Source of the DNA: Bacteroidales bacterium
Lineage (GTDB): Bacteria > Bacteroidota > Bacteroidia > Bacteroidales > UBA3824
Direction of reading: 5' to 3'
DNA: 64,000 bases
Assembly (NCBI GenBank): GCA_016286055.1
Contig: JAEERW010000001.1
Span: 1 to 64,000 of the forward strand
A program made the translations under genes and the position numbers. Positions 22,980-46,524 of the stretch are shown here, piece after piece. The first letter of the stretch is position 1; each line of letters begins with the position of its first letter. The notes under the pieces were generated by a model. It made no database searches. It worked only from the letters and a program-made list of their open reading frames with translations, and was not told the DNA's origin.

Positions 22980-25025
22980 ATGGCAGAAAACAAAGAATAT
23001 AAAAGGATACTCGTTACATCGGCGTTGCCATACGCCAACGGTCCTATACACATTGGACATATGGCGGGAGTTTACATTCCCTCAGATATTTACGTAAGAT
23101 ACCAACGTCAGCGTGGACGCGATGTTATTCACGTTTGCGGAAGCGACGAACACGGTGTGGCTATCACTATGCGCGCCCGTAAAGAGGGTACTACTCCCAA
23201 GGCAATTATCGACAAATATCACGAACTCAATAAAAAGGCTTTCGAGGATTTTGGAATAAGTTTCGACATATATTCGCGCACAAGTTGCGACGTGCACACC
23301 GAAACCTCACAAGAAATTTTCAAAACCCTCTACAACAAAGGCATTTTTGTAGAAAAAACCACCAAGCAATATTACGACGAGGAGGCTCATCAGTTTCTTG
23401 CCGACCGCTATATTATGGGCACCTGTCCACACTGCGGCAATCCCGACGCTTATGGCGACCAATGCGAAAAATGCGGCACATCGCTCGACCCTACCGACCT
23501 TGTGAACCCCCGCAGCACTATCTCGGGCAGCCAACCTGTGCTCAAAGAGACAAAGCATTGGTATATGCCTCTCGACAAATATCAGCAGTTTCTTGAAAAA
23601 TGGATTCTCCAAGACCATAAGAATTGGAAAGTAAACGTGTACGGACAGTGCAAGAGTTGGCTCGACCAAGGTCTTCAACCCCGTGCCGTAAGCCGCGACC
23701 TCGATTGGGGTATTCCCGTTCCCGTAGAAGGCGGCGAGGGTAAGGTGCTATACGTTTGGTTTGATGCGCCTATCGGCTATATCTCTTTTACAAAGCAACT
23801 TACCAAAGATTGGGAAAAATATTGGAAATCGCCCGATACCAAACTCGTTCACTTTATCGGCAAGGACAATATTGTTTTCCACTGCATTGTGTTCCCCGCA
23901 ATTCTCAATGCCGAAGGTACTTACATTCTCCCCGACAATGTTCCTGCCAACGAGTTTCTCAATCTCGAAAACGACAAGATTTCCACTTCGCGAAATTGGG
24001 CTGTTTGGCTTCACGAATACAACGAGGATTTCCCTGGCAAACAAGACGTACTCCGCTATGTGTTAACGGCTAACGCTCCCGAAACCAAGGACAACGATTT
24101 TACTTGGAAAGATTTTCAACAGCGCAACAATAGCGAACTTGTGGCTGTGCTTGGCAACTTTGTTAACCGTTCTTTGGTGCTCACTGCCAAATATTTCGAC
24201 AACATTGTTCCTCAACCGGGCGAACTTACCGAAAACGACAAAAACACCCTCGCTCAGATTGCCACAATCAAAGCCGACACCGAAAACAGTATCGAGGCTT
24301 ACCGCTTCCGCGAGGCTTTGAACAACGCTATGGGTCTCGGTCGCCTTGGCAATAAATACATCACCGAGCAAGAGCCGTGGAAGGTAGCAAAAACCGATAT
24401 GGAACGCGTAAAGACCATCCTTTACGTAAACCTTCAAATCACCACCGCTATTGCCACTGTGTTAGAACCATTTCTTCCTCACACAAGTTCTAAGTTGATT
24501 GAGTTCCTCAACCTCGACAAAATTGTGGCTTGGGACGAAATCGGCAAGGGCGAACTTATTGCTCCGGGTCACAAACTCAACAAGAGCGCGCTCCTTTTTG
24601 AACCTATCACCGACGAGGTTGTGCAGGCTCAGGTAGACAAACTCAACGCCACAAAGTTGGCAAACCAAAAATCTGCCTTCAAGCCCGCTCCGCAAAAACC
24701 GAATATCTCTTTCGACGACTTTACCAAGGCTGACATCCGCACCGCCACCATCATTGCCGCCGAAAAGGTAGCCAAAACCACCAAGTTGCTCAAACTCACT
24801 GTCGACACCGGTATCGACACCCGCACTTTGGTTTCGGGCATAGCCGAGCATTACGACCCTGAAAAAATCATCGGCACTAAGATACTGATGATAGTAAACC
24901 TTGAACCCCGCAAAATCAAAGGCATTGAAAGTCAAGGAATGATTCTCTGCGCCGTTGCTGCCGACGGAGGCTACCACCTTTGCGCCCCCGACGCCGAAAT
25001 CGAAAATGGCTGCGAAGTGAAGTAG
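22980..25025 (+). CDS. metG: Methionyl-tRNA synthetase with C-terminal tRNA-binding domain
   Basis: 681 residues. Class I synthetase: HIGH motif [10 protein letters not shown] near the start, KMSKS as KISTSRNW. The zinc knuckle holds CPHCGN and CEKCG. The anticodon-binding helical domain follows. The last 110 residues form an EMAP/Trbp111-type tRNA-binding domain ([15 protein letters not shown] to GCEVK) that also supports dimerisation. It loads initiator and elongator tRNA-Met. A strong hairpin terminator follows the stop. Confidence 0.96.
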
Positions 25026-25060
25026 CATATTTTTGATAAAATTTATCTGCAATATAAAAA

Positions 25061-25101
25061 TGGGTTAATTGAATTTAAATCAATCAATTAACCCATTTTT
25101 T
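25061..25101 (+). terminator. Terminator after metG
   Basis: TGGGTTAATTGA (25061-25072) and TCAATTAACCCA (25084-25095) form a perfect 12-bp stem with an 11-nt loop, followed by T6. Confidence 0.9.
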
Positions 25102-25105
25102 GTGT

Positions 25106-25159
25106 ATTTATATATCGCCAAAACAGGGTAATTTGATGCTGTTTTGGCGGAATATAATT
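25106..25159 (+). repeat. Left 54-bp repeat with palindrome
   Basis: It holds CGCCAAAACAG (25116-25126), a 12-nt spacer GGTAATTTGATG, and CTGTTTTGGCG (25139-25149), a perfect 11-bp stem. It differs from the right copy at three positions. Its outer part, 25106-25126, is also a perfect 21-bp inverted copy of 25192-25212, so the whole block before the gene can fold on itself. Confidence 0.85.
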
Positions 25160-25212
25160 TTTTTATTCCGCCAAAACTGTATATATTTGCACTGTTTTGG
25201 CGATATATAAAT
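25141..25212 (+). promoter_or_regulatory. Promoter of the ATPase gene nested in inverted repeats
   Basis: The palindrome half-sites CGCCAAAACTG (25169-25179) and CTGTTTTGGCG (25192-25202) enclose a 12-nt spacer that is the promoter itself, TATATTTG at 25182-25189. In addition GTTTTGGCGGAATA (25141-25154) and TATTCCGCCAAAAC (25164-25177) form a perfect 14-bp inverted repeat. A protein bound to the half-sites would cover the -7 element; no clear -33 TTG is present. Confidence 0.75.
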
Positions 25213-25221
25213 TTTAATATT

Positions 25222-26637
25222 ATGATACAACTAATTGGAAGACAGAGAGAAATGTCAGAACTTGAACGTTGCCAACTTAGCAATCGTAGCGAATTTGTTG
25301 TTGTTTATGGACGTAGACGAATTGGTAAAACTTTCTTAATCCGCAGTTTTTTTCACGACAAATTCGACTTCTTTTTTACAGGTTTGCACAATTATAAACG
25401 ACAGCCTCAGTTGGACGACTTTGCCGTAGCCCTTCAAAAATATGGCGGAAGCAAGTTTAAAATTAAACTTGATTCGTGGAACGAGGCTTTTAATCAGTTG
25501 CAAGTGCTTTTGAGTAAAAAGCGGAGCAAGTCTAAGAAAATTGTATTTATCGACGAAATGCCGTGGATTGATACACGTCGTTCAGATTTTGTACCTGCGT
25601 TAGAAAAATTTTGGAACTCGTGGGCATCGCTCCGTGATGACATAATGCTCATAGTGTGTGGTTCGTCTACTTCGTGGATTATTGATAACATTATCAAAAA
25701 TCAAGGCGGACTTTACAACCGAGTTACTATGCAAATTTATCTTCGTCCCTTTACCTTGGCAGAATCGCGCCAATATCTCATTGCCAACGGCTGCAAATGG
25801 GATATTTATCAAGTGGCTCAGTGTTATATGGTTATGGGTGGAGTTCCGTTTTATTATAGCCTTTTGGATAATAGCCAAAGTCTCGCCCAAAATATTGACA
25901 GGCTATTTTTCTCCTCTAAAAATGCTGTTCTCCGCACCGAATTTGAACAACTTTTTGCCACCCTTTTTAATAAGTACGACCGCTATATCAATGTTATTAA
26001 GGTTCTGATTCAAAGGCAGGAAGGCTTTACTCGAAGTGAATTAGCCGAATTGGCAGGTTTTGGCGGCTCAGAATTGACAAAAATTCTTGAAAACCTCGAA
26101 CGTTGCGACTTTATTCAGGGGTTCGACAAGTTTAACGGTGGATTTAAAAATCGTATTTACAAAGTGTGCGACTTGTACACGCTTTTTTATTTCAAATTTA
26201 TTTATAACAAGTCTGCCCAACCATCTAACTATTGGCAAAAAATTTTTGATAAGCCTTCTATTGCCGCTTGGCAGGGATTTACGTTTGAAACTATCTGCCT
26301 GATGCATACCGAACAAATTAAACGTGCTTTGGGAATAGAAGGTATTCTTACATCCACAGGCACTTGGCGTAGCAAAAACCGTGATGCTCAAATCGACCTT
26401 GTGATTGAACGTTCCGATCGTACTATCAATCTTTGCGAAATAAAATTCTCTAAAAATAAGTATGTAATAACCAGTGATTATGAAAATCATCTTCGCGACC
26501 GAGAATCTTTGTTTATCGAAGAAACTAAAACAAAATACGCCGTAAACACAGTTTTTATCACTACCTATGGTGTTCGCAATCCTCAAAATTTTTCGATAGT
26601 TTGTGGTGATTTGAAATTAGATGATTTGTTCTTATAA
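25222..26637 (+). CDS. AAA ATPase (ATPase_2/DUF234 type) with winged helix and PD-(D/E)XK-like tail
   Basis: 471 residues from the ATG at 25222; the open frame further upstream crosses the promoter. The P-loop is GRRRIGKT (30-37) and Walker B is VFIDE (108-112). A winged helix follows at about 265-300 (GFTRSELAELAGFGGSELTK). The C-terminal domain has the spacing of a PD-(D/E)XK nuclease: D392 in AQIDLVIE and E406-x-K408 in LCEIKFSK. This matches the 'archaeal ATPase' COG1672 group, whose members are abundant in Bacteroidetes and of unknown role. The winged helix could bind the palindromes around the gene. Nuclease activity is inferred from motif only. Confidence 0.88.
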   Translation: MIQLIGRQREMSELERCQLSNRSEFVVVYGRRRIGKTFLIRSFFHDKFDFFFTGLHNYKRQPQLDDFAVALQKYGGSKFKIKLDSWNEAFNQLQVLLSKKRSKSKKIVFIDEMPWIDTRRSDFVPALEKFWNSWASLRDDIMLIVCGSSTSWIIDNIIKNQGGLYNRVTMQIYLRPFTLAESRQYLIANGCKWDIYQVAQCYMVMGGVPFYYSLLDNSQSLAQNIDRLFFSSKNAVLRTEFEQLFATLFNKYDRYINVIKVLIQRQEGFTRSELAELAGFGGSELTKILENLERCDFIQGFDKFNGGFKNRIYKVCDLYTLFYFKFIYNKSAQPSNYWQKIFDKPSIAAWQGFTFETICLMHTEQIKRALGIEGILTSTGTWRSKNRDAQIDLVIERSDRTINLCEIKFSKNKYVITSDYENHLRDRESLFIEETKTKYAVNTVFITTYGVRNPQNFSIVCGDLKLDDLFL

Positions 26638-26662
26638 TCAGGTATTTAGTTTATTTTTCTAA

Positions 26663-26716
26663 ATTTATATCCCGCCAAAACAGGGTAATTTGATGCTGTT
26701 TTGGCGGGATATAATT
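26663..26716 (+). repeat. Right 54-bp repeat with palindrome
   Basis: Same orientation as the left copy. Here ATATCCCGCCAAAACAG (26667-26683) pairs perfectly with CTGTTTTGGCGGGATAT (26696-26712), a 17-bp stem with the same 12-nt spacer. Changes relative to the left copy lie on both sides of the stem and keep the pairing, which argues for selection on the palindrome. It is not followed by a T run. Confidence 0.85.
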
Positions 26717-26722
26717 AAAATC

Positions 26723-27346
26723 CTACAACAACTGATCCATTCCAAAAAATATCATAGCCCCATAGAGGTAAAATCTTATGTACCTCGATAAGCCGAAGAT
26801 AAGTGTTTGTTTTAGAGGATATTTTACCATTCCGGCGGCTAAGGTGGTGGTGGCAAAGGGCAACGGAAAGAGTGCGGCAAGGATTATTATTATGCCGCCC
26901 CATTTGCGTATGCGCTCAAAAAACACTGCATTGCGGTTTTCGAGCCAACGGCGAAAGCGTGGAAACTTTAATGCTATCTTGCCGATAAAATAGGCGTTCA
27001 TTCCACCTACATACGATATTGTGCCAAGAATTGTGAGCCATAGAAGCGGCGCGTTAAACTTGTCGCTCCACATAATAAATAGGTCGGGCGGAATCCATCC
27101 AAGCACCGTTTCTGAAATAAGAAATAGCGTGAGTACGCCTGGCGTATCGTGACTAAAAATATAGTCTTCGATAATTTGTGACAGATTGAAGAAATGATTG
27201 AGCAATAATACAATACCTACTATTATTGCAATTATTACTAAAAGTTTAATTACGATTTGCCCCATAAACTTATAGAGCCCTGTGCGCTTGTTGTAGGCGT
27301 GGCGGATGCGGAGTTTTTCTGCAAACGATTTCTCTATTTTTGACAT
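26723..27346 (-). CDS. VTT-domain (DedA/SNARE-associated-like) inner membrane protein
   Basis: 207 residues, about five membrane segments: 30-50, 66-85 (re-entrant), 95-115, 148-168 and 180-198. The family motifs are ETVLGWIPPDLFIMW and the glycine-rich GTISYVGGMNAYFIGKIA. FPLPFATTTLAAGMVKY resembles the F/YxPxxR region, with the arginine missing. Such proteins are lipid scramblases or flippases in better known cases. A TAATTTTG element lies on the minus strand at 27377-27370. Monocistronic, ending against the palindromic repeat. Confidence 0.82.
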   Translation of the reverse strand: MSKIEKSFAEKLRIRHAYNKRTGLYKFMGQIVIKLLVIIAIIVGIVLLLNHFFNLSQIIEDYIFSHDTPGVLTLFLISETVLGWIPPDLFIMWSDKFNAPLLWLTILGTISYVGGMNAYFIGKIALKFPRFRRWLENRNAVFFERIRKWGGIIIILAALFPLPFATTTLAAGMVKYPLKQTLIFGLSRYIRFYLYGAMIFFGMDQLL

Positions 27347-35732: not shown

Positions 35733-35808
35733 AATACTTGCTTTTTTCTTTTCGGCAAATATAATGATTTTTTTATTGCAAAAAATGTTTTTCCTCGCAA
35801 ATTACTAT

Positions 35809-46313: not shown

Positions 46314-46524
46314 CTGCGGAAATCTCACTTTTTTATATGAGATTTCCGCAGAGAATCGGTGATTTTTTGCCGATTTGCTGCGGAAATGTCGGTTTTTTAT
46401 GTGAGATTTCCGCAGAGAATGGGTGCGGGGAGAGTAAAAATTGCAAGTTTTTGCTTGATATAGTTTTTTAATTTGACTTTTCAAAAAGCCAATTCTCTAT
46501 CAAAAATGACTTTTCCAAAAGTCA
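46314..46524. repeat. Cluster of short palindromes
   Basis: Main content of the gene-free stretch 46225-46578. CTGCGGAAATCTCA (46314-46327) pairs with TGAGATTTCCGCAG (46338-46351), 14 bp. AATCGG (46354-46359) pairs with CCGATT (46370-46375). CTGCGGAAAT (46378-46387) pairs with ATTTCCGCAG (46406-46415). TGAGATTTCCGCAGAGAAT is repeated at 46338-46356 and 46402-46420. A separate palindrome, TGACTTTT-CC-AAAAGTCA, is at 46507-46524 with a T run after it; it may terminate transcription from the left. REP-like in character. Confidence 0.75.

Follow-up and report, generated by a model that had tools for sequence, protein, structure and literature searches.

The palindromes that surround a single ATPase gene between metG and a VTT-domain gene, in the 64,000-nt stretch of Bacteroidales DNA analyzed here (the window), are best explained as a private operator array that the gene's own product reads, with autoregulation as its most likely role, and we give this explanation a probability of about 0.8. 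The reading draws on sequence, namely on the architecture of the locus, protein-site covariation, helical phasing, conservation of catalytic residues and presence or absence among genomes. The features of the locus and of two related sites in the window are listed in Table 1. The three 34-bp palindromes were found where the preliminary description of this DNA had placed them; they fit its pattern with 0 mismatches, and the pattern occurred 0 times in 100 dinucleotide shuffles. They are far beyond chance, and such palindromes recur throughout the family with different sequences. As had also been claimed, near-identical 54-bp direct repeats bracket the gene (25106-25159 and 26663-26716; 3 differing positions), the differences in the right repeat extend its stem (perfect over 19 bp, vs. 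89% in the left repeat), and one palindrome encloses the promoter, with the -7 box sitting in its spacer. A single half-site match, GGTTTTGGCGGC, lies within the gene (26056-26067) in the codons directly before the recognition helix and is possibly there by chance. The region 25120-25298 weakly resembles the Bacteroides sRNA BTnc060 (32 bits vs. a cut-off of 229), a match that is probably due to chance.

Table 1. Coordinates in the window of the ATPase locus, its neighbors and two related sites.
Feature	Position	Strand	Details
metG (methionyl-tRNA synthetase)	22980..25025	+	Left neighbor; Pfam PF09334, E 1.5e-161
metG terminator-like hairpin	25056..25100		17-bp stem; outside the array
Palindrome 1	25116..25149		Half-sites ATCGCCAAAAC / TCCGCCAAAAC, spacer 16 nt
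Palindrome 2	25169..25202		53 bp past palindrome 1; promoter -7 box inside the spacer
Bacteroidota -7 box	25182..25189	+	TATATTTG; ATG 40 nt downstream
ATPase - winged helix - PD-(D/E)XK protein	25222..26637	+	471 aa; PADLOC PDC-S27, Pfam ATPase_2 and DUF234
ATPase module	25222..25971	+	Residues 1-250; Walker A G30RRRxGKT37, Walker B D111-E112
Winged helix	25975..26166	+	Residues 252-315; recognition helix 282-294, wing 302-311
C-terminal PD-(D/E)XK-like nuclease (predicted)	26254..26634	+	Residues 345-471; E356, D392, E406-x-K408
Palindrome 3	26673..26706		CCCGCCAAAAC twice; 34-nt core equals that of palindrome 1, spacer included
VTT-domain membrane protein	26723..27346	-	Right neighbor
Empty site	35757..35806		Occupied in relatives G004 and G017 by a sister unit (GTTGCCATAAC palindromes and ATPase, arrays on both sides)
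Orphan array	46314..46415		Pair of palindromes of a different type, ACTGCGGAAAT, 63 bp apart and without an ATPase; spacing as in unit L068 of genome G008

The protein had been described as a P-loop ATPase with a winged helix and a PD-(D/E)XK-like tail, and this architecture was recovered. Pfam cut-offs were exceeded for both ATPase_2 and DUF234 (59.4 vs. 33.2 bits and 24.6 vs. 22.5 bits, respectively), and the PADLOC model PDLC04984 (PDC-S27) matched over its full length (E 2.9e-188; residues 1-470 on 1-473/474). D392, E406 and K408, together with the Walker A and B motifs, are invariant in 79 of 79 aligned members, a conservation which suggests that both activities are probably kept. An AlphaFold model (mean pLDDT 94.4) placed residues 282-294 on the recognition helix and residue 309 in the wing. 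The top structural matches of the protein were two archaeal AAA+/Walker ATPases, SSO1545 (2fna) and PABY2304 (2qen), whose ATPase and winged helix align with Z 20 over ~300 residues; the match stops near residue 326 of the window protein, and the C-terminal nuclease lies outside it. Next came the STAND ATPases (CED-4, plant NLRs and MalT) and ORC/Cdc6, where the likeness is that of the ATPase-winged-helix core (Z 13-17), CED-4 and NLRs reaching 14-17 and ORC/Cdc6 also 13-14. Unlike in the STAND and ORC proteins, the winged helix here would recognize a specific operator, and a nuclease is predicted at the C-terminus.

The preliminary description held that COG1672/DUF234 ATPases are of unknown role. 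This is not wholly so, since the family corresponds to the PADLOC defence candidate PDC-S27, although that is only a candidate label taken from the database. PDC-S27 is defined as an ATPase domain fused to a member of the PD-(D/E)XK superfamily, with 3503 in Archaea and 4562 in Bacteria (PMC12988326), and it is common in rumen genomes (PMC13356809). The surveys count thousands of instances, and one says that most such candidates await validation (PMC12988326; PMC13356809). The window protein matches PDC-S27 over its full length with the ATPase and PD-(D/E)XK motifs intact. The open-licence literature that we searched yielded no published description of private palindromic arrays, nor of a winged-helix code or promoter phasing for PDC-S27.

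The genome that carries the window holds 13 full-length copies including the window gene, the other twelve being 41-52% identical to the window protein. One shortened copy (L029) and two distant matches come on top of these, and among relatives within the genus the number of copies goes up to 27. An upstream inverted repeat with a score of at least 13 was present in 82 of the 95 copies with flanks and in 0 shuffled controls. A common plan was found in 91 of the 95, in which an 11-nt half-site (NNNN-C-xyz-A-W-C) and its inverted counterpart are separated by an A/T-rich spacer of 15-17 nt. Spacers of this length were seen in 207 of 220 cases. The period between successive palindromes is mostly 51-55 bp (59 of 82 intervals), and a second class of intervals measures 72-75 bp. 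The palindrome sequence differs paralog by paralog and is kept among close orthologs. About a fifth of the copies have a matching downstream palindrome and most are without one. In an independent set of named genomes, 46 of 76 loci scored above 8 (shuffles, 0.3%), while the other 30 had no site of the common plan at score 8, some of them possibly following another plan. Relatives are also plasmid-borne in Phocaeicola, Segatella, Butyrivibrio, Emticicia and Malaciobacter, and Wolbachia phage WO contains them as well. Upstream palindromes accompany the gene in Butyrivibrio, Emticicia and Segatella as well as in some viral contigs; in phage WO, a motif of the type ACCGCGG/CCGCGGT occurs as two direct copies.

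Two further observations concern neighboring gene families. The palindrome type GTGCCAAAAATGTG occurs at three sites (L006, L007 and L008), of which two share a contig, where one precedes a RhuM-like gene and the other a DUF4143-type ATPase, and the third is on another contig. The same genome as the window has ~34 DUF4143 ATPases above the cut-off (loci L298-L327); an upstream inverted repeat was seen in 11 of the 29 checked, several with private palindromes near the start (L298, L300, L304 and L305), so that the principle may extend to PDC-S01-like genes.

Covariation between the winged helix and the half-site was analyzed in 62 proteins of <85% identity. The strongest links were those of base 7 to residue 309 in the wing and of base 2 to residue 284 in the recognition helix, followed by those of residues 281, 287 and 293 to half-site bases. 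Where residue 309 is Arg, base 7 is T or C, and otherwise it is A. Columns outside the winged helix (e.g., 92 and 438) also covary, as shared ancestry alone can produce. Two checks were aimed at such ancestry effects. In loci of held-out genomes residue 309 gave base 7 correctly in 37 of 40 cases, a modest gain over a constant guess, which scored 33 of 40 (label shuffle p < 2e-4); base 6 was predicted from residue 281 in 30 of 40 (constant guess, 22). Residue 284 was dropped as a code element for base 2, with 11/40 correct in this set vs. 18/40 by a constant guess. When the winged helix was masked for tree building, 11 of the 12 base-7 changes fell on the same branch as a change of residue 309 (p about 1e-15), with control columns reaching 4 at most. 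The covariation of half-site bases with the winged helix of the same protein argues that the protein very probably reads its own array.

The arrays are also placed in a regular manner at the promoter. A -7 box TAnnTTTG follows the palindromes in 116 of 126 cases, mostly 25-40 nt before the ATG, and the distance from the last palindrome to this box has a period of 10.5 bp (R 0.73 vs. a null 99.9% value of 0.34, related copies being counted separately). Since this period is that of the DNA helical repeat, it argues for protein-DNA contacts acting on transcription. By covariation and helical phasing, then, the DNA-binding domain of the protein corresponds to sites at the promoter of its own gene, as expected of an autoregulated operator. 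Two earlier suggestions, that the winged helix could bind the palindrome and that the gene is autoregulated, are thereby strongly supported from the sequence comparisons, and the role of the array is most simply, and most likely, autoregulation.

The metG-VTT junction was compared in relatives without the gene, as the preliminary description had proposed, and three near-identical genomes were seen to retain palindromes there: a single one in G017, and a pair in each of G004 and G015, where the ATPase is missing and another gene is present. At a second site (L017), genome G012 retains one palindrome along with a promoter remnant, and in G004 and G017 the palindromic promoter precedes a lipoprotein-like gene; at a third (L025), G015 and G017 still have the array together with 69 bp from one end of the gene. 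As read from these remnants, the direction at the L017 and L025 sites is loss by deletion. Across five near-identical genomes, 77 members fell into 51 clusters, of which 34 were in one genome only and 0 were common to all five; the five are drafts of 84-99% completeness, so that some absences are missing data, whereas the named sites were read directly. Judged by these comparisons, the unit of array plus gene is gained and lost rapidly. Few palindrome copies occur elsewhere in 1.13 Mb of the genome, and its orphan arrays fit this picture of unit loss; the ACTGCGGAAAT pair is probably the scar of a lost unit. Repeats lacking an ATPase, which had been named as evidence against a cassette, do exist, but they are few and several resemble remnants. 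Solo palindromes were also considered as dispersed MITEs, and this was rejected given their few copies and the tie of each type to an ATPase here or in a relative. An extra secreted-protein gene between ATPase and closing palindrome is present in one and missing in the other of two near-identical units, L019 (contig C27 of the same genome as the window) and L046 (G012).

The alternative that we weighed most closely is that the unit is a palindrome-bounded mobile cassette, in which the nuclease uses palindromes as ends, or solo palindromes as targets, for transposition or homing, promoter control being secondary. The matching palindromes at both ends in about a fifth of the copies, the whole-unit differences among near-identical genomes, the solo palindromes at former or potential sites, the members on plasmids and phages, and the identity of palindromes 1 and 3 down to the spacer are all in its favor. 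Against it, the 35.76-kb site showed neither a target-site duplication nor a clean junction, no excision product was found, the remnants at two sites indicate loss, and most copies have no downstream palindrome. The Pfam scan returned no transposase-type domain, only ATPase, DUF234 and DUF4143-type matches and weak noise. Synteny is lost among more distant orthologs of the ATPase, but the control gene VTT loses it just as readily; ortholog non-synteny is therefore no evidence of transposition and was dropped as such. The window palindrome was also rejected as a viral target, there being no exact arm match in viral contigs. RAYT/REP and IS200/IS605 elements likewise place a single gene between palindromes and have solo palindromes elsewhere; unlike in those elements, the Pfam scan found no HUH transposase here, and the palindromes have the spacing of protein operators at a promoter. 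On balance we consider the mobile cassette unlikely. What stands of the cassette first proposed is a discrete unit that is gained and lost (the gene is absent in three near-identical genomes, and two relatives carry a sister unit); excision or insertion at the repeats was not upheld, as the absences of clear direction are ordinary deletions. Somewhat more doubtful yet is a dual role, with the palindrome serving both as operator and as DNA end or target for spread, which would make the unit a selfish or defence cassette guided by its palindrome, each genus holding dozens of orthogonal specificities.

Two other readings appear very improbable. The palindromes might be sites of an unrelated host regulator, or generic REP/MITE repeats adjoining the gene by chance, and a few of them do adjoin other genes; their sequence, however, is private to each paralog and changes with its own winged helix, and copies elsewhere in the genome are few. 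Still less probable is that they are transcriptional terminators or RNA hairpins. Their stems are perfect and the downstream copy has a terminator-like position, but most upstream arrays precede the -7 box, where transcription is not expected, palindrome 3 is not followed by a T-run, and the spacing tracks the DNA helical phase and covaries with a protein residue. Rfam gave no family near its cut-off, only matches far below, and an RNA role was rejected on this ground and on the position of the arrays.

Under the preferred reading of a self-read operator array, the protein would combine a STAND/ORC-like ATPase with a winged helix that reads DNA and, at the C-terminus, a PD-(D/E)XK nuclease. 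We infer that it may form oligomers that bind inverted half-sites about every 26 bp, and that an array so bound, lying over its own promoter or in helical register with it, would control the gene, with repression, here assumed rather than activation, the most likely mode. A trigger such as phage infection might then release the gene, and the nuclease would act on foreign or cellular DNA. The unit would consist of array and gene, sometimes with a downstream array or an extra gene, and deletions would leave solo palindromes. The downstream palindromes of about a fifth of the copies are not needed by simple promoter control. The winged helix and array of each paralog would have diverged together, and through this co-divergence dozens of copies per genus would stay insulated from one another.

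Taken as a whole, the family appears to be a large, fast-turnover set of candidate anti-phage ATPase-nucleases, each of which appears to read its own private array via one winged-helix code. Among uncharacterised defence candidates PDC-S27 is one of the most frequent, and its function now becomes approachable, as the sequence gives a predicted DNA target for each member together with a residue-to-base rule. The dozens of insulated specificities in close genomes would form a natural set of orthogonal DNA-binding regulators, and they would explain how so many copies can coexist.
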